Shown here: piece after piece, positions 1,267 to 9,581 of the stretch
Layout of the letters: every line of letters starts with the position of its first letter
How positions within the stretch are numbered: position 1 is the stretch's first letter
Assembly: GCA_013215515.1 (NCBI GenBank)
Contig: JABSPC010000138.1
Coordinates: 1 to 12,714 of the forward strand
Direction of reading: 5' to 3'
From: Crocinitomicaceae bacterium
GTDB lineage: Bacteria; Bacteroidota; Bacteroidia; Flavobacteriales_D; Crocinitomicaceae
DNA: 12,714 bases
Position numbers and translations under genes: made by a program
The notes under the pieces: generated by a model
Database searches by the model: none
Seen by the model: only the letters and a program-made list of their open reading frames with translations
Told to the model about the DNA's origin: nothing

Positions 1267-3147
1267 TTATTGTTTGATGAGTCTTTTAACGCTTTCTACT
1301 TGAGAATCTTGGTATGTAACGAAGTACACTCCGCTTGATAAACTTGATAGATCTAATGTCATTCTGTTGTTTTCAGCGCCATACGTTTGCTTAACAAGAA
1401 CAATTGTTCCGTCGGTACTTTTGACTTCTAACATTCCATATTCTTTCGTCTCCAAATTCAACATAACAGTTACGTTTTCAGTTGCTGGATTTGGATAAAG
1501 GTTAACGATTCCAACCTCATTAGAGATTCTATTTAGGGAGATTGGATCGATTAAAGTTTTGGCTCCGTTGTAATCAACTTGTTCTATTCTGTAGTATGCT
1601 GTGCCAGAGCGAGGACTCAAATCTTCAAATGAATAATTTGTAGTTTCGGTTGTAGTTCCAGCTCCATAAATTTTAGCAATGTTTTCAAATGTCTGACCAT
1701 CGTATGATCGCTGTAAATTAAAGTAATCATTATCACGTTCGGAAATCGTTTTCCAAGAAATGATATTTGATTCTGGAAGGGCAACCCCATGAAACTGAAC
1801 GAGTTCAACTGGCAGTTGAATTCCGGATGCAACCCACCCGTCAACTTGGAATACACAATTGTCAGCAGCATATCCATCTACCATCAAGATATAGGTGTTT
1901 CCTATAGTTAAACCAACGGCATTTACATTTCCACTTGTTGGTGTTGCTGGGTTCCAGCAGTTTGACCTAGAAGTAAAGTTATTACAGCATCCGTTTGGAC
2001 CGTTGGTAACCTCGTATACATGGGCTTGAATTCCATCGCCATTTACGCAGCCCGTTACTGAAGAGAATGGGAAAGTAGCAGTAGTAGCAGTTGCCACGAA
2101 TTGATACCATGAGTTGTTTTCAATTGTTCCACAAAAGACAGCGTTTAAGTTCCCCGGTGTATCAGATGTATAATACGGGTATGTACTTGAAATAAAATTC
2201 CCTGGGCCCTGAATTAACGTTGCAGGAGCGTTACAATAATCTTCATTGGGAGGAGAGGAACATGCATTGTTATCTTTAACACAGATTCCAATTCCTCCAA
2301 ATTGATCGTTACTTTTTTCCCATACTTGGAGATAAACCGTGGCCCCAGGAGTAAGTCCTGTTGCAAAAATGTAGGACATTGTTCCTGATCCATCGTCATC
2401 ATTACAGGCAATTTGAGTTAAGGCTCCACACGGACCGTTGTAAAGCGCTATTCCAGAATTGTAAAATGAATGTTCTTCAGTGTCGATGGCTATATCGCCA
2501 GATGCTGGAACCACCATTGAAAACCAAACGTCATTCCCTTGGTAGTTTGCACAACCTGGATTTGGTAATCCAGAATCGGTAGCCGGAGAGTTTGTTCCTG
2601 TTATAAATGTACAAGTCGCTCCAACTGCAAGAGGAATTGCACCACATGGGTCATCGTTTGGAACGTTAGCGGATGTAGCACAAATATTTCCTGTATGAAC
2701 ATTCCATCCGCCACCACTTCGTCTATTTATATAGATAAAGTATGGTGTTCCATAAGTAGTTGGAAATACTATTGATCCAGTTCCAGTGTTACTCCACGTA
2801 CAAGCAACCTCTCCAACTCCACCGCAACCCGTAAAGGCAGCAAGGCAAAAGTTATGGCTACTTCCTGTGATTGTAATTGTAACTGGATTTCCAGTTCCGT
2901 ACATAACGAACCAGCCATCTTGGCGTTGAGGCCCCCCGCCGTTGCAAGTTCCAAAAGTTGAAGCTGACCACCACCAACGTGTAATAAACGGTCGGGGGAG
3001 GCAAGCCGAGAGGACGGGTAGATCAGTAAGAGTGCTTGGTGCAGTATTGCAATTATTACTTTGGGAAATCGCTGTTTGACTAAAACCTATTATTAATAAA
3101 CAACCTAGAATAAGGAGTGGATTTCGAGTTTGGGTGGCACAATTCAT
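1267..3147 (-). CDS. T9SS-exported Cys-rich multidomain surface protein
   Basis: A 626-aa protein from the chosen start. An ATG 19 codons upstream (3204) is in frame but would place polar residues before the signal peptide, so 3147 is preferred. The signal sequence runs from MNCATQTRNP through a hydrophobic stretch to SQTAISQ. Several Cys- and Gly-rich beta domains follow, including one of about 130 residues starting DDPCGAIPLAVG and ending GIGICVKD, with the acidic Ca-binding-like patch CNDDDGSG. Next comes a fibronectin-III-like segment (IISWKTISERDNDYFNLQRS to YYRIEQVDYNG). The last 80 or so residues are a type A T9SS sorting domain, with YPNPA, LDLSSLSSGVYFV and a terminal KRLIKQ. The protein should cross the outer membrane by type IX secretion and be attached to the surface or released. 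Adhesion or ligand binding is inferred; no catalytic motif was seen. Confidence 0.85.
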   Translation of the reverse strand: MNCATQTRNPLLILGCLLIIGFSQTAISQSNNCNTAPSTLTDLPVLSACLPRPFITRWWWSASTFGTCNGGGPQRQDGWFVMYGTGNPVTITITGSSHNFCLAAFTGCGGVGEVACTWSNTGTGSIVFPTTYGTPYFIYINRRSGGGWNVHTGNICATSANVPNDDPCGAIPLAVGATCTFITGTNSPATDSGLPNPGCANYQGNDVWFSMVVPASGDIAIDTEEHSFYNSGIALYNGPCGALTQIACNDDDGSGTMSYIFATGLTPGATVYLQVWEKSNDQFGGIGICVKDNNACSSPPNEDYCNAPATLIQGPGNFISSTYPYYTSDTPGNLNAVFCGTIENNSWYQFVATATTATFPFSSVTGCVNGDGIQAHVYEVTNGPNGCCNNFTSRSNCWNPATPTSGNVNAVGLTIGNTYILMVDGYAADNCVFQVDGWVASGIQLPVELVQFHGVALPESNIISWKTISERDNDYFNLQRSYDGQTFENIAKIYGAGTTTETTNYSFEDLSPRSGTAYYRIEQVDYNGAKTLIDPISLNRISNEVGIVNLYPNPATENVTVMLNLETKEYGMLEVKSTDGTIVLVKQTYGAENNRMTLDLSSLSSGVYFVTYQDSQVESVKRLIKQ

Positions 3148-3231
3148 AGTAGAAGAATTTAAATCTGTAGTACTATTAAGACGATTGTTTTGTACCTCAA
3201 GCAAATAGAAATGTTAGAAAAGGGCTTACGA

Positions 3232-3262
3232 TTGAATATTTCAACATGTTTGTTGAATATTT
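3232..3262. repeat. Paired TTGAATATTT repeats forming a hairpin
   Basis: TTGAATATTT occurs at 3232-3241 and again at 3253-3262, spaced exactly 21 bp, or two helical turns. Bases 3235-3246 and 3251-3261 also form an 11-bp inverted repeat with one bulged base and a 4-nt loop. It lies in the leader of the T9SS protein gene, downstream of radA. It could be an operator with two half-sites, an RNA hairpin in the leader, or a weak terminator after radA; no T-run follows it on the minus strand. Confidence 0.4.
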
Positions 3263-3318
3263 AAGGATTGCCCATGTCAAAAACATACAGGCCCCTAGGC
3301 AAGGTGTAAATTGTTATG

Positions 3319-3326
3319 CAAACATA
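3319..3326 (-). promoter_or_regulatory. Candidate -7 element for the T9SS protein operon
   Basis: The minus strand reads TATGTTTG, an exact match to TAnnTTTG, just beyond the radA stop. No TTG lies at the expected -33 distance. If used, the leader of the T9SS gene would be about 165 nt and would carry the hairpin at 3235-3261. Confidence 0.3.
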
Positions 3327-3344
3327 GGGAGGAAGGCTGTGGTG

Positions 3345-4706
3345 CTAAGCGAAGAGTGCCTTTACAACCTCGATAATTGTTCCGCACTGAATGAGTTCAA
3401 TTTTAAAGTTTTTCTGGTCGATTCCCTTGTTGTACTTTGAAATAATGATTTTATCGAAGCCGAGTTTTTCCGCTTCATGAATCCGTTGATCTGCTCTGTT
3501 TACAGGACGAACTTCACCCGATAGACCAACTTCAGCTGAAAGGGCAATTTTCTTTTGTATTGAAATATCAGCATTTGAGGAGAGTACTGCGGCAACAACG
3601 GCTAAATCTATTGCAGGGTCATCGACTTTAATTCCTCCGGCGATGTTTAAGAAAACGTCTTTGGCACCGAGCTTGAATCCACAGCGTTTTTCCATAACGG
3701 CCAGCAACATATTCAAACGCTTGCTGTCAAAACCAGTCGATGAACGTTGAGGTGTTCCGTAGGCTGCAGTGCTTACGAGAGCTTGTACTTCGATCAACAT
3801 TGGGCGCATTCCTTCCATTGTCGCGGCTATTGAAACTCCACTCAATGAAGTATCAGAATCGCTAATTAGTATTTCTGAAGGATTGGCAACTTCTCTCAAA
3901 CCGCTTCCTAACATTTCGTAGATGCCCAACTCGTTTGTGCTACCAAATCGATTCTTAATTGATCTTAATAGTCTGTAAACGTGATTTCTATCTCCTTCAA
4001 ACTGTAAAACAGTATCGACCATGTGCTCCAGAACTTTAGGTCCAGCTAGTGATCCTTCTTTAGTAATATGTCCAATTAAGAATACCGGAACATTACTTTG
4101 TTTGGCATATCGAAGAAGCTGCGCTGTACATTCGCGCACTTGAGATATGCTTCCAGGAGAACTTTCTATTTGTGAGGAGTATAAAGTTTGAATGGAATCA
4201 ATGACGAGAAGTTGAGGTTGAACCTGTTCTGCCTGTTTGAAAATATTTTGAACGTTTGTTTCCGTTAGAATGAAGCAGTCTTTGTTTGAAACGCCAATTC
4301 TGTCCGAGCGCATTTTTATTTGTTGATCACTCTCTTCTCCAGAAACATAAAGCACTTTTAAGCCTGGGTTTGTAACGGCGAGTTGAAGAATGAGTGTTGA
4401 TTTACCGATTCCCGGCTCACCACCAAATAAGATTAAAGACCCATATACTAGGCCTCCGCCCAACACACGATTCATTTCTTTGTCATTAAGAACAATCCGA
4501 GGATGTTCTTTTTGTTCGATATCTTCTAAAGACTGAGGCTTTGCGCTTTCCCCAGATCGAGAAAAGGCAACTACTTGAGGAATCTGTTTTTGAATAAGCT
4601 CTTCAACGAATGTATTCCATTCGTTGCATGACGGACACTTCCCCAACCATTTTGGGGTTTCGTGACCACATTTTTGACAATAAAAAGCTGATTTCACCTT
4701 CGCCAT
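3345..4706 (-). CDS. radA: DNA repair protein RadA
   Basis: A 453-aa protein of full family length. RadA is a RecA-related ATPase that drives branch migration of recombination intermediates during DNA repair. The N-terminal zinc finger has Cys at 10, 13, 24 and 27 (CQKC...CPSC). The Walker A motif GGEPGIGKST is at 95-104, followed by a Walker B strand LLVIDSIQT. The RadA-specific KNRFG motif is present (SIKNRFGSTNELGIYEM). The C-terminal third is the Lon-protease-like domain (LIEVQALVS, GVSIAATMEG, LSAEVGLSGEVRPV), as usual for the family. Start and stop both fit known homologues. The downstream T9SS gene is nearly 200 bp away, so radA is probably transcribed alone. No strong promoter was seen in the 75 bp upstream. 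Confidence 0.97.
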   Translation of the reverse strand: MAKVKSAFYCQKCGHETPKWLGKCPSCNEWNTFVEELIQKQIPQVVAFSRSGESAKPQSLEDIEQKEHPRIVLNDKEMNRVLGGGLVYGSLILFGGEPGIGKSTLILQLAVTNPGLKVLYVSGEESDQQIKMRSDRIGVSNKDCFILTETNVQNIFKQAEQVQPQLLVIDSIQTLYSSQIESSPGSISQVRECTAQLLRYAKQSNVPVFLIGHITKEGSLAGPKVLEHMVDTVLQFEGDRNHVYRLLRSIKNRFGSTNELGIYEMLGSGLREVANPSEILISDSDTSLSGVSIAATMEGMRPMLIEVQALVSTAAYGTPQRSSTGFDSKRLNMLLAVMEKRCGFKLGAKDVFLNIAGGIKVDDPAIDLAVVAAVLSSNADISIQKKIALSAEVGLSGEVRPVNRADQRIHEAEKLGFDKIIISKYNKGIDQKNFKIELIQCGTIIEVVKALFA

Positions 4707-4781: not shown

Positions 4782-4991
4782 CTATCCAGCGTAACCTTTA
4801 CGGCTCCACTTCGCACATTTGCGTTTTCTTTTCTTATTTGTACGCTTTCCTTTTTTACCCTTTTTACCTGGTCCTCCAGGATATAAAACGGTTTCCATTG
4901 AAGTGGAGTTTTGAAAGTCAAGTGTTAATTCTGTGCTTGCCGATGAAAGGAAAGACATAGAAATTACTGCGAGGGAGAGAATAAATTTCAT
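4782..4991 (-). CDS. Small secreted Lys/Arg-rich protein
   Basis: A 69-aa protein of no known family that I can name. Residues 1 to about 19 form a signal peptide (MKFILSLAVISMSFLSSAS). The mature part has a short acidic/polar segment (about 20-37), then YPGGPG, and then a strongly basic run at about 43-65 made of GKKGKKGKR and KKRKRK blocks. A single Cys is at 59 and a Trp at 62. A convincing promoter lies upstream (5024-5052), which supports a real gene. A secreted cationic peptide could bind polyanions such as extracellular DNA, LPS or polysaccharide, or act as a toxin or structural peptide. All of these are speculation. Confidence 0.65.
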   Translation of the reverse strand: MKFILSLAVISMSFLSSASTELTLDFQNSTSMETVLYPGGPGKKGKKGKRTNKKRKRKCAKWSRKGYAG

Positions 4992-6353: not shown

Positions 6354-6405
6354 CTAATATGTCTTCTTCACTTTTATCTCTCGAAATGGAATTCCTACGA
6401 AAAAG
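6354..6405 (-). pseudogene. Possible 3' end of the IS-interrupted gene
   Basis: On the minus strand, right outside the IS end, a frame reads FFVGIPFREIKVKKTY and stops at TAG 6356-6354, convergent with the kinase gene that stops at 6339. It could be the C-terminus of the small signal-peptide gene whose 5' end lies on the other side of the element. The two halves are not in frame if joined directly and no target duplication is seen, so coding sequence was probably lost. The piece is short and could be chance. Confidence 0.3.
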
Positions 6406-6425
6406 TGGACAAATTAGTTAAGGTA
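6406..6425 (+). repeat. Terminal inverted repeat, orfB end of the IS
   Basis: TGGACAAATTAGTTAAGGTA, 16 of 20 identical with the repeat at the other end, including TGGACA and TAGTTAAG. Confidence 0.8.
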
Positions 6426-6427
6426 TA

Positions 6428-7290
6428 TCAAGCAGCTTGTTTTTTGTAATTCAATTTTTCAAATTCTAATATGGTCATTCCATCTAATGTAGAATGTCTT
6501 CTTTGCCTGTTGTACCAAGTTTCTATGTAATCAAAAACGGCTAATTCAGCTTGTTTTCTAGTGTTGTAATCTTGATGATACACAATTACCTTTTCTACTC
6601 ATGCTTCGTGTCACTAGCTCATTTCTGTCGAGATAATTGGCGAACTATTTGCATGCATATTGTATTCCTCTGTCTGAATGAAAAATTAGTGGAGCATCAA
6701 TCTTACGATTATCATTTGCCATTTTCCAAGCTGGAACGACAGTATCTTTTGCATATATTGTTTTACTGAGTGCTCAGCCAATGATTTTTCTATCCCATAA
6801 ATCCAGAATTATAGTCAAATACACCCATCCCTCTTTTGTTGCTATATCTGTAATGTCTGACACCCAGGCTTCATTAGGTTTTTCTGTTCTAAAGCCTCGA
6901 TTCAATTTATTGGGAACAATTGAATATTTATGATTTGAATTCGTTGTTACCTTCCACTTCTTTCGAATCTTACTTTGAATACCATTTGATTTCATCAATC
7001 GAGCAACTTTTGGTTTGGAAGCTGAAAAACCAAGTTCTTGTAACTCTCTACAAATACGTGGGCTTCCGTAGGTATATCTACTTTTTATATGAATTTCTGT
7101 AATCATCTCCTCTAGCGCTTTGTTTTCTTGCTCACGTTTCGATGGCTTGCGATTCCTCCAACTGTAATAGCTGCTACGACTCAACCGTAAAACTTTACAC
7201 ATCCTTTTAACTGGGAACATACAGTGATGCTCCTTGATAAACTCGTACCTCCACAGTCGTTCTTGGAAAAGATGCCTACCGCCTTTTTTT
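6428..7290 (-). pseudogene. IS3-family transposase orfB, inactivated
   Basis: This was originally a DDE transposase of about 280 aa made by frameshift fusion with orfA. Minus-strand pieces in order are AVGIFSKND in the -1 frame after the A8 run; an apparent 2-bp TG duplication near 7251-7258 that shifts the frame; WRYEFIKEHHCMFPVKRMCK; and the helix-turn-helix and integrase core with the first Asp in WVSDITD. A TGA (6776-6774) then replaces an expected Trp after RKIIG. The frame continues through the second Asp (HSDRG) to a TAG (6647-6645), and then to RKGNC near 6584. There about 17 codons corresponding to WDNAVAESFF and its surroundings are missing. The end YHQDYNTRKQ to KLNYKKQAA stops at 6428-6430. 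Loss of the catalytic Glu makes the enzyme certainly inactive. Confidence 0.85.
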
Positions 7291-7554
7291 TAATATATCA
7301 CGCTCTAGTTTCAAATCACGGTTCTCCTTACGTAATCGACGTAGTTCTTCTGTTTCAACATCTTGTATCGTTGATGGAACTCCTGAACCCGTGAAGACTT
7401 CGCCTTCTTTTTGATAAAACTCTTTTCGCCAGCGATATAATAATGGTTCACGTATACCCAAACTTATTGCAACCTCTTTTATACTATCGCTTTTGTTACT
7501 CATTTCAATAGCTTTCAGCTTGAATTCTTTGCTGAACTTTTTTATTGCTTTCAT
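7276..7554 (-). CDS. IS3-family transposase orfA
   Basis: A 92-aa protein with the usual HTH_Tnp_1 fold: basic N-terminus MKAIKKFSKEFKLKAIEM, a helix-turn-helix (SIKEVAISLGIREPLLYRWRKEF), then a leucine-zipper-like coiled coil (TEELRRLRKENRDLKLERDILKK). It binds the terminal inverted repeats and dimerises. The frame is intact and ends just after an A8 run where ribosomes would slip -1 to make the OrfAB fusion. With orfB destroyed, OrfA alone could at most bind IS ends and interfere with related copies. Confidence 0.85.
   Translation of the reverse strand: MKAIKKFSKEFKLKAIEMSNKSDSIKEVAISLGIREPLLYRWRKEFYQKEGEVFTGSGVPSTIQDVETEELRRLRKENRDLKLERDILKKRR
7284..7291 (-). other. Programmed -1 frameshift slippery run (A8)
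   Basis: The minus strand reads TTAAAAAAAAGG at the end of orfA. Slipping back one base leads into AVGIFSKND, the expected start of the orfB part. This is the typical IS3-family site, and it no longer matters because orfB is broken further on. Confidence 0.65.
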
Positions 7555-7588
7555 GCGTCTAATTTAAAATAGTTAATGCTTACTAAAC

Positions 7589-7608
7589 TATCTTAACTAA
7601 ACTGTCCA
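7589..7608 (-). repeat. Terminal inverted repeat, orfA end of the IS
   Basis: Minus strand TGGACAGTTTAGTTAAGATA, the partner of the repeat at 6406-6425. It lies 35 bp upstream of the orfA start. Confidence 0.8.
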
Positions 7609-7683
7609 GTCTAATATAGTACTTCCAGAAGCAACAGTGGATAGAATCAATACTAACAACAATAATAGTGTGGAAAGCTTCAT
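7609..7683 (-). pseudogene. 5' end of a small secreted-protein gene cut by the IS
   Basis: ATG at 7683, 29 bp after the bufC stop, opens 25 codons that encode a clear signal peptide (MKLSTLLLLLVLILSTVASG) and then STILD. The next codons, WTV and a stop, are made from the IS end itself. The gene was thus the fourth member of the MNIO operon and lost its body when the IS inserted. A possible 3' end is at 6354-6405. Its product is unknown. A short exported protein in this position could be a second substrate peptide or an accessory factor, which is inference. Confidence 0.6.
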
Positions 7684-7712
7684 TGAAATGCGATTGGTAG
7701 AAACGAAACTAA

Positions 7713-8450
7713 TCATTTCATCCCTTTAACGAGCTGAATCCCTTCCAGTTTAGAAATAAACTCAAGGCAAAACTGGAAGATTTCGTCCGTAGGTTCAATT
7801 TCATTTTGAACCAAAATATTCTCGAGAATGTTTGCAACGGTATCGGGTTGAATCGAAAGCTGCTCAGTTAATACAGCTAAAAAAGGCGTCAACTCCATCA
7901 TCTTGACGGTAAAGTCATCTTGATCACGGTAGAGAAGAATGAAATAAGGTCCCTGATGCTCCTCAATATCATCCCATTTCTCATTGTGAATAGGATATGT
8001 AAGTTGCACGACTTCAAACTCGTTGTGAAGTACCAATTGAACATTCAAATCATCATTAAACCCTTTTAAATAAACGGGTTCCCAATCCTTCCGGTAGAAC
8101 AATTCAAATTGACTCCATTCAAAACGAAGCGCATCATTTAACCAATTGTAATTATTCTCAACTCCCCATTGTGATTTCTCCTCATGACTAATCAATGAAA
8201 AAGGCATCTTCCAGAATTGAGGTTCTTGGCATTTAAAGCTGAGCACAAAACCGTGTATGAACTCCGTCCACTTCTCTTCTTCTAAGGCTCTTAAAGTTAG
8301 CGGGTATGTATTTCTTAGGGCACTATCAAAATTAGTCAGCACCATTGACCTATAAGACTCCTTAGCCTCTACATCAATGTCCATCTCTTGTCCTGTACGA
8401 CAATAAACACCAAATTGATTTTGCTTTATGATTGATTTTGATTCAAACAT
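7713..8450 (-). CDS. bufC: BufC/HvfC-type (DUF2063) partner of the MNIO enzyme
   Basis: A 245-aa cytoplasmic protein. Proteins of this family pair with DUF692 enzymes and present the precursor peptide to them (MbnC, HvfC, BufC). The N-terminal DUF2063-like helical part is at about 30-95 (YRSMVLTNFDSALRNTYPLTLRALEEEKWTEFIHGF), including the typical R/N...YP...L..E pattern. A beta-rich middle (VYLKGF, VQLVLHNEFEVVQL, GPYFILLYRD) and a C-terminal helical/winged part (FLAVLTEQLSIQPDTVANILENIL) fit the peptide-binding RRE-like fold of MbnC. It overlaps bufB by 8 bp (ATGTTTGA), so translation is coupled. Assignment is from position plus pattern; the family is very divergent. Confidence 0.75.
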   Translation of the reverse strand: MFESKSIIKQNQFGVYCRTGQEMDIDVEAKESYRSMVLTNFDSALRNTYPLTLRALEEEKWTEFIHGFVLSFKCQEPQFWKMPFSLISHEEKSQWGVENNYNWLNDALRFEWSQFELFYRKDWEPVYLKGFNDDLNVQLVLHNEFEVVQLTYPIHNEKWDDIEEHQGPYFILLYRDQDDFTVKMMELTPFLAVLTEQLSIQPDTVANILENILVQNEIEPTDEIFQFCLEFISKLEGIQLVKGMK

Positions 8451-9270
8451 TGACAGAACTTGAATCTAAAATTGTTCTAATTTCTGACATATCCTCTTTG
8501 AGGTCGTTGAAGTCTTCGAAATTAACGTCACGCTCCAACATCACCGGCACTGAATCAGGTAACTCTCTTATTACTTCGTTAAATAACTCATAAACAGGTT
8601 GAATAATTTTCTGACCATGCGTATCTAGAATAAGGCCGTCTTCCGTAGCTTCGTGACCACCAATATGGACGTAATTTACATTTTCGAGAGCAATCTCTTC
8701 TATAAATTTTCGGGGATCATAATTGTGATTTTGAGAATTCACAAATATATTATTGACATCCAACAACACTTTGCACTTCGACTCTTCAGCAATTTTATTG
8801 AAAAATTGAGCCTCTGAAAGCTCAGCCTCTAGCACTGTGTAATATGTTATATTCTCCAACACCAACGGGCGTTCCATGAAATCTTGAATTGTTCTAATTC
8901 TTTCCGATATATGCTTTACGGCATCACCAGTAAAAGGCACAGGGAGCGATTCATACAGGTGGGCATTATCACATGTGGAAAAAGACAAGTGTTCACTGTA
9001 AATATCAATGTTGTACTCGTCTAGAAAGTCCTTGATCTTTTTAAGAAATTCAAAGTTAAAAGGATCAGTACTCCCAATTGAAAGAGAGAGTCCATGCGCT
9101 GTAAACGAATACTTCTCTGCCACTCGAGACAGAATTGATCGCCAATACCCTCCTACTTCAATCCAGTTTTCGGGTGCAAGTTCAAGAAAATCAGGGCGAG
9201 AGTCTTCAATATCGCAGATCTCCAAGGCAATTTCACGCCTCAAACCAAGACCTACTTTATTGTTACTCAT
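8443..9270 (-). CDS. bufB: DUF692/MNIO iron oxidase (BufB-type) for peptide modification
   Basis: A 275-aa TIM-barrel protein of the DUF692 family, now called multinuclear non-heme iron-dependent oxidative enzymes (MNIO; MbnB, HvfB, BufB, ChrH). With two or three irons and O2, these enzymes oxidise cysteine or other residues in precursor peptides, for example to oxazolone-thioamide or thiooxazole. The family signature is complete: VGLGLR at 6-11, ELAPENW at 30-36, and putative metal ligands H59 (AHGLSLS), H94 (SEHLSF), E139 (VLENI), D171 (LLDVNN), H202 (YVHIGGHE), D216 and H218 (LDTHG), and E246 (MLERD). It sits between the candidate precursor (17 bp upstream) and the DUF2063 partner (8-bp overlap). 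The chemistry and substrate residues are unknown, since the precursor is unlike the known substrates. Confidence 0.92.
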   Translation of the reverse strand: MSNNKVGLGLRREIALEICDIEDSRPDFLELAPENWIEVGGYWRSILSRVAEKYSFTAHGLSLSIGSTDPFNFEFLKKIKDFLDEYNIDIYSEHLSFSTCDNAHLYESLPVPFTGDAVKHISERIRTIQDFMERPLVLENITYYTVLEAELSEAQFFNKIAEESKCKVLLDVNNIFVNSQNHNYDPRKFIEEIALENVNYVHIGGHEATEDGLILDTHGQKIIQPVYELFNEVIRELPDSVPVMLERDVNFEDFNDLKEDMSEIRTILDSSSVNV

Positions 9271-9287
9271 GAATAGTTAATTCTGAA

Positions 9288-9581
9288 TTATTTTGAAGCT
9301 TTTTTAGATTGCTTCCCAGACTTCCGAATAGCACGTTTATCTTGACGTGTCCATTTGCGTTGTTGTTTTTTAAATCCCTCTGGATTACCATACGCACAAC
9401 AAAGTTCTGCTGGGGAAAGAACGATATCCGAATCAGAAACTTCATTGATATCTAAGATCTTTGTTTGAATCTCTTTTGCAGATCCTAAATCTCTAGTTTC
9501 AAATAAGTTGCAGTCATTGGCGAATGCTGATCCAGCAAACAATATCGTTGATCCTAATAAAAATGCTTTTCCTTTTCCCAT
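9288..9581 (-). CDS. Candidate MNIO precursor peptide: exported, Cys-containing, basic tail
   Basis: A 97-aa protein. Residues 1-21 are a Sec-type signal peptide ending A-F-A, giving a mature N-terminus NDCNLFETR. The mature part has three cysteines (24, 61, 62), an acidic middle (about 28-58: LGSAKEIQ, INEVSDSD), the motif AELCCAYGNPEG at 59-69, and a Lys/Arg-rich tail from 71 to 97 with a single Trp at 77. It heads the operon, as bufferin (BufA) and HvfA precursors do, and those are also exported. It does not show the EGKCG-type repeats of HvfA or the four-Cys DUF2282 pattern that I know for BufA. It is therefore called a precursor by position, signal peptide and cysteines only; a separate small secreted protein is the alternative. 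Confidence 0.6.
   Translation of the reverse strand: MGKGKAFLLGSTILFAGSAFANDCNLFETRDLGSAKEIQTKILDINEVSDSDIVLSPAELCCAYGNPEGFKKQQRKWTRQDKRAIRKSGKQSKKASK

Follow-up and report, generated by a model that had tools for sequence, protein, structure and literature searches.

What does an MNIO (DUF692) operon make when its small exported precursor belongs to no recognised family? The question is raised by contig JABSPC010000138.1 of a Crocinitomicaceae bacterium, the whole of which (12,714 nucleotides, hereafter the window) was analysed here. The initial annotation saw in the precursor a possible new RiPP class. No paper naming this family, which we call CAYG, was found in a literature search that included its motif strings; since hundreds of small exported Cys-bearing ORFs are noted ahead of mega-cluster MNIOs in the available part of PMC12452194, members may already sit in Table S2 of that paper. 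Rather than a new class, the operon appears to be a form, carried by a few marine-type Bacteroidota, of a known copper-binding peptide system in which the repeated Cys motifs have been lost, one altered site has been kept and a basic tail has been gained. Alongside the precursor, the enzyme appears to have changed at a position thought to read the Cys site.

Layout and genomic linkage of the operon

The three ORFs first proposed stand as annotated, all on the reverse strand: a 97-residue precursor (9288..9581), a 275-residue MNIO that starts 17 bp downstream (8443..9270), and a 245-residue DUF2063 partner (7713..8450) that overlaps the enzyme gene by 8 bp. Pfam confirms both the enzyme (PF05114, E 2.7e-88) and the partner, in which PF09836 (DUF2063, 40.3 bits) and PF22106 (NGO1945_C, 49.3 bits) exceed their cut-offs; the latter protein is thus of the DUF2063 plus RRE-like type (PME type 1) and HvfC-like, with 83.8 bits against the NCBIfam HvfC cut-off of 142. 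The MNIO is HvfB-like by the trees described below and by NCBIfam HvfB (NF003818), the top of five MNIO models at 340.7 bits against a curated cut-off of 360, with the window enzyme alone scored. The precursor, recognised as a family through protein and profile searches, matched no Pfam or NCBIfam model, in keeping with the earlier view of it as unfamiliar. A single MNIO was found in the window genome (3.47 Mb in 796 contigs, 79% complete).

On the 3' side of the partner gene lies the start of a further short exported-looking ORF (7610..7683, reverse strand), whose membership in the operon is uncertain. It is interrupted by an element that we take to belong to the IS3 family (approximately 6405-7609), which has imperfect inverted repeats, transposase ORFs broken by stops, and HTH_Tnp_1, HTH_21 and rve domains.

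The precursor is sparsely distributed. Its profile matched four (the window genome among them) of the 240 genomes searched in the window's family, and a scan of the named genome collection returned three loci in the same three relatives (L021, L022 and L023). Across the order, 6 of 399 genomes matched the first profile (A1) at E 0.01, two of them weakly, and these two proved to be an EGKCG precursor (G332, E 0.0037) and a stop-ridden stretch; the viral contigs searched held no relative. Linkage to the enzyme, predicted at the outset, was found in all four genomes: at the window, L021, L022 and L023, the four loci on which everything said of genomic context is based, an MNIO gene follows the precursor after 17, 3, 2 and 2 bp, and a DUF2063 gene follows the MNIO.

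No recurring flanking gene was seen when ORFs at these four loci were compared by eye, and no regulator or DoxX gene adjoined a CAYG operon among the neighbours scanned. At L023, a sigma-70 gene (231-797) stands 6.2 kb upstream of the precursor with five other ORFs between, among them a TetR-type gene and an ABC/HlyD/outer-membrane efflux set. At loci of the EGKCG type, discussed below, RskA-like anti-sigma genes lie directly upstream of four clusters of the window's family chosen by eye (L003, L006, L025 and L026), the last of which also has a sigma-70 gene, suggesting stress control; a DoxX gene lies downstream of L024, and another gene is found there at L007.

One cysteine site and a basic tail

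Protein searches yielded five relatives of the precursor and successive profile rounds 17 and then 18, for a total of 20 clusters at 90% identity (P0001-P0020); P0013 and P0016 were found in the 17-relative round and were absent from the next. The edge of the family is sharp, the weakest match of the 18-relative round having E 2e-23 where the limit was 1. Counts given here are for 20 members, the window protein and P0002-P0020; P0001, 99% identical to the window protein, was left out of them and of profiles A1 and A2. Two relatives carry organism names, both Crocinitomicaceae.

The window peptide begins with a Sec-type signal peptide (residues 1-21; 9519..9581, reverse strand as for all its parts), with a basic start, a hydrophobic run and an AFA end that set its boundary by inspection. 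There follow a leader with LFETRDLGSAKEIQ (residues 22-58; 9408..9518), a core reading ELCCAYG (residues 59-65; 9387..9407), and a basic tail (residues 66-97; 9291..9386) with 13 K/R, 2 D/E and 9% VILMFW. In an AlphaFold model of mean pLDDT 65, the tail forms one predicted helix (67-96) and block means exceed 70 only from residue 71 onward, everything else, including a helix at 5-23, being of low confidence.

Of the three cysteines pointed out in the window precursor, all are present there (Cys24, Cys61 and Cys62), and only one is universal. The motif EL[CN]CAY is kept in 20/20 members, so that the CAY core of the proposed CC-AYG signature is upheld; the Cys-Cys pair is not, residue 61 being Cys in 11 members and Asn in 9, and Cys24, on which weight had also been placed, occurs in 2. 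A Cys-Cys signature was accordingly rejected. Eight members, one of them N-truncated (P0015), have a single Cys in the whole protein. Cys62 is the likely modified residue, and its invariance is matched by that of Ala63 and Tyr64. The statement that EGKCG repeats and a four-Cys bufferin pattern are lacking is borne out by this one universal Cys and by the lack of any DUF2282 match or any match at E<=1 to the HvfA models NF050137 and NF050188, which five relatives likewise failed to match. All four EGKCG precursors scanned as a control matched NF050137 at E<=0.0053 and only one exceeded the cut-off, so this model is weak for Bacteroidia.

The basic tail, also noted initially, recurs throughout: K/R account for 40% or more of the final 30 residues in all 20 members, with tails of 27-49 residues containing 2-22% VILMFW. 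Substitution rates in the one pair compared (L022/L023) indicate that core and leader are tightly held (residues 1-66: dN 0.020, dS 0.43, dN/dS ~0.05) and that the tail is held mainly in composition (dN 0.22, dS 0.67, dN/dS ~0.33). Two other views of the tail were set aside. Such tails are not common background, occurring in 2 of 36 small signal-bearing ORFs from 400 kb of control DNA (19 stretches of G015 and one of G055, under a crude home-made signal-peptide rule), one of the two presumably being ribosomal protein S13. Nor is the tail supported as the frame-shifted remnant of an EGKCG array, as the other two frames of four CAYG genes showed no EGKCG-like residues by eye.

The window encodes another basic exported-looking peptide, unrelated to the precursor, of 69 residues (4782-4991, reverse strand) with a C-terminal K/R block and one Cys. 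It reads TNKKRKRKCAKWSRK where the five relatives read have NKKRKRKC..W.R, has no Pfam or NCBIfam family above cut-off, and is a conserved unnamed gene of 38/240 family genomes (29 in the window's genus and 9 in one other); in G015 it lies 31 kb from the MNIO operon. Its presence in the same window raises the possibility that basic exported tails are a theme of the lineage, which counts against the CAYG tail being special.

Relation to EGKCG-repeat precursors and their enzymes

Of 399 genomes from the order, 13 carry related MNIOs (E up to 1e-60), as do 20 of 395 from the class; the window's own genome is counted in both. The resulting set comprises 33 enzymes, 4 with CAYG precursors and 29 others from Bacteroidia, and an EGKCG-type (oxazolin/captophorin) precursor lies upstream of 26 of these 29. 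The three without one are L009, L024, which seems to end at a contig end, and L026, which looks frame-broken; at L009 an EGKCG-type precursor with a lipoprotein-like start (3124-3390) is placed after the MNIO and partner genes instead of before them. Near a more distant MNIO (30% identical), an ORF at L012:3236-3562 ends in a Cys-rich stretch of the CSSCSSCSSCGGGC type.

Many EGKCG precursors begin like the window peptide, as in L027 (...ANLFETSDLGSGAELRNELL...VELKCGE) compared with the window (...DCNLFETRDLGSAKEIQTKIL...AELCCAYG), and profile comparison ties the CAYG leader (LFETxDLGS) to theirs. With signal peptides and cores excluded, the leader profiles alone (25 EGKCG against 20 CAYG sequences; the L045 ORF, without a recognisable leader, was left out) aligned in hhalign at E 4.4e-5 with a score of 22.7, the best of 200 column shuffles scoring 13.2; whole profiles (A2 against A3) gave E 5.1e-6. 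Sequence-to-profile tests were weak in both directions. The EGKCG leader profile found 1/20 CAYG precursors at E<=0.01 and 10/20 at E<=1, with 1/538 control ORFs at E<=1, and the CAYG leader profile found 1/26 and 4/26 EGKCG precursors at these limits and 0/538 unshuffled control ORFs; 20 shuffled sequences also passed E<=1 with the latter, and the six listed all derive from the N-truncated P0015, the leader of which had survived the shuffling. Judged by profile-profile alignment, then, the CAYG leader is homologous to that of EGKCG precursors of Bacteroidia, a comparison in which HvfA itself was not included.

The resemblance extends to the first Cys site. ELxCA aligns with the first site of EGKCG precursors, often E-L-x-C-G, some of which read ELKC or ELTC and one ELTCA, and the first Cys follows LG at a distance of 30 residues in the window and 18-33 in the 25 EGKCG precursors. 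Position -3 of CG sites beyond residue 40 in EGKCG precursors is always acidic (E in 112/151, D in 39/151), and Glu59 stands at -3 of Cys62. A profile derived in part from three comparison genomes found EGKCG precursors in all three of them and in none of the four CAYG genomes, two of which are 79% and 86% complete. The likeness of leader and first site leads us to infer that the CAYG precursors are a derived branch of the captophorin kind, and the proposal of a new RiPP class is not sustained.

The enzyme retains its metal site. The full ligand set listed at the outset (H59, H94, E139, D171, H202, D216, H218 and E246) is present and identical in 33/33 aligned MNIOs, window included. The four CAYG enzymes form one clade in a maximum-likelihood tree (support 97/99) that persists on omission of L008, of L010/L011 or of the window, though branches are long; at best match they are 43-54% identical to EGKCG enzymes. 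The match between the window enzyme and an EGKCG-type MNIO (E 3e-103) points to a place in the mega-cluster of PMC12452194, as outlined in the part of that paper available, rather than in its separate cluster 3 (adjamnio-3).

One change in these enzymes may bear on substrate choice. According to the available part of PMC13097082, Phe250 of FonB adjoins the proposed base Asp249, contacts residues around the modified Cys and affects selectivity (AlphaFold model and mutants), and a logo of 100 Lys-Cys MNIOs shows it conserved. By way of the ERDF motif, the FonB sequence itself being unaligned, window position 249 (codon 8524..8526, reverse strand) would be its equivalent: it is Phe in 29/29 other MNIOs and Val, Ala, Ser and Ser in the four CAYG enzymes, and the proposed-base position is Asp in two of these and Glu in two. 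Of 77 non-ligand columns invariant in the 28 full-length others (L024 excluded), 8 differ in every CAYG MNIO, and the inclusion of Phe249 among these has a chance of about 10% by itself; the four enzymes, moreover, form one clade. The link to substrate choice is suggestive and not proof. In FonBC double variants, the Gly that follows Cys could be exchanged for Ala alone, so sites of the E-x-x-C-A type are open to such an enzyme, although modification of a Cys-Tyr substrate was seen once; the variants mentioned there include neither Cys nor Asn ahead of the modified Cys. Of minimal FonA peptides, one with two repeats was modified and one with a single repeat was not, which counts against a single-site substrate for that enzyme, and CAYG precursors have one site (all from the same portion of PMC13097082).

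Product of the operon and comparison with known systems

We consider it likely, with a probability of roughly two in three, that the product of the operon is a derived captophorin-like RiPP with one site and a polycationic tail, modified at Cys62, probably to a 5-thiooxazole. In such a scheme, the DUF2063/RRE partner would bind the LFETxDLGS leader in the cytoplasm and hand the E59-L-[C/N]-Cys62-A-Y site to the MNIO, which would oxidise Cys62 with iron and O2, a 5-thiooxazole that takes in residue 61 being the most likely result, before export of the peptide through Sec. The modified site could then serve as a soft-metal (copper) ligand or a redox thiol, and the basic helix could hold the peptide to an anionic surface such as the outer membrane, exopolysaccharide or nucleic acid. 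The CAYG type would have a single origin in the lineages covered, in an EGKCG-repeat precursor, through loss of the repeats, change of an ELKCG-like first site to EL[CN]CAY, and opening of the enzyme pocket (Phe249 to Val, Ala or Ser). This account draws on the constant precursor-MNIO-DUF2063 linkage, the similar leaders, the EGKCG precursors upstream of most related MNIOs and their lack in CAYG genomes, the acidic -3 residue, the single enzyme clade, the change of Phe249 in all four and the tolerance of Ala. Against it we count the unmodified one-repeat FonA peptide and the lack of Cys or Asn before the modified Cys among the variants mentioned (PMC13097082, available part), Glu at the base position in two of four enzymes, the weak sequence-to-profile leader tests, the one-in-ten chance attached to Phe249, the absence of regulators and DoxX beside CAYG operons, and a context of four loci.

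The same changes in precursor and enzyme would also fit a different chemistry, in which the enzyme, acting on Cys-Ala-Tyr, makes a product other than 5-thiooxazole (a Cys-Tyr cross-link, Tyr hydroxylation or Cys beta-carbon loss, for example) and the peptide is not a copper buffer. The invariance of Ala63 and Tyr64, the loss of Phe249 together with seven other otherwise invariant columns, the Asp-to-Glu difference at the base, the long stem branch of the clade and the report of an MNIO system acting on Tyr (PMC12257519, in the part available) all lean this way, and a single site per peptide would be poor for metal buffering. We nevertheless judge it unlikely, given that the ligand set is unchanged, that the best NCBIfam model is HvfB, that the characterised MNIO-PME1 cases install 5-thiooxazole, and that E-x-x-C-A falls within FonBC tolerance (both from PMC13097082, as far as its available text goes). 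A related idea, which we put forward tentatively, is a switch within one clade: a multi-site copper-buffering MNIO, its Phe250-equivalent pocket opened and its base Asp changed to Glu in one branch, would have been re-specialised to one modification at Cys-Ala-Tyr on a polycationic helix. The outcome would be a single-site cofactor bound to a surface or polyanion, in place of a metal sponge, and the chemistry might be new, joining Cys62 and Tyr64.

The tail invites a reading as a cationic antimicrobial peptide or bacteriocin for which the MNIO step is maturation, since the peptide is exported-looking and strongly basic in 20/20 members and L023 has ABC transporter, HlyD-like and outer membrane efflux genes directly upstream. 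That exporter set is present at one locus of four, no recurring immunity or protease gene was seen among the flanking ORFs (by eye and in partial Pfam scans), and the tails hold few large hydrophobics, in which membrane-lytic peptides are not poor; we find this reading improbable. Still harder to credit is that the precursor is a decayed EGKCG gene in an operon on its way out: sparse occurrence and the IS element after the window operon would suit decay, which is already disfavoured by the purifying selection estimated on core and leader in one pair, and the ligands are intact and the same core is found in every member.

If the single-site captophorin-like reading is true, bulk metal buffering is a role that captophorin systems can give up in favour of a product with one site. 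CAYG and EGKCG systems would then form a natural before-and-after pair, with similar precursor leaders and enzymes 43-54% identical at best match, in which a one-residue enzyme swap and one core swap would be a direct test of how MNIOs choose their substrates.

Among known systems, the bufferins Buf1 (DUF2282) and Buf2 share with the CAYG operon an exported precursor, an MNIO and a PME type 1 partner, but have four conserved Cys (Buf1) or six or twelve (Buf2) according to the available part of PMC12452194, whereas CAYG precursors have one. In the lipidated oxazolin NedA, an EGKCG product is anchored to the membrane (PMC12636315, part available), and by likeness to it the basic tail may be an anchor, although that of NedA is a lipid and that of CAYG would be electrostatic at most. 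Captophorins, the peptides of which carry a 5-thiooxazole and bind Cu, combine, as set out in the accessible text of PMC13097082, a full-ligand MNIO, a PME type 1 partner (DUF2063 plus RRE) and a Cys-rich precursor of the Lys-Cys, Cys-Lys or DUF2282 category; the operon has the first two, and its precursor has instead one universal Cys, preceded by Cys or Asn and followed by Ala. From the oxazolins and Lys-Cys captophorins (HvfABC, FonABC) it differs in its lack of repeats and of Lys-Cys, its one EL[CN]CAY site, its basic tail, the loss of Phe at the selectivity position, the lack of an NCBIfam HvfA match, and the lack of an adjoining regulator or DoxX gene in the neighbours scanned. It is nonetheless these systems that the operon resembles in the order of precursor, MNIO and DUF2063 genes, in its Sec-type signal, in a leader similar to those of Bacteroidia EGKCG precursors, in the acidic residue at -3 of the Cys, and in an HvfB-like enzyme whose ligands are unchanged.
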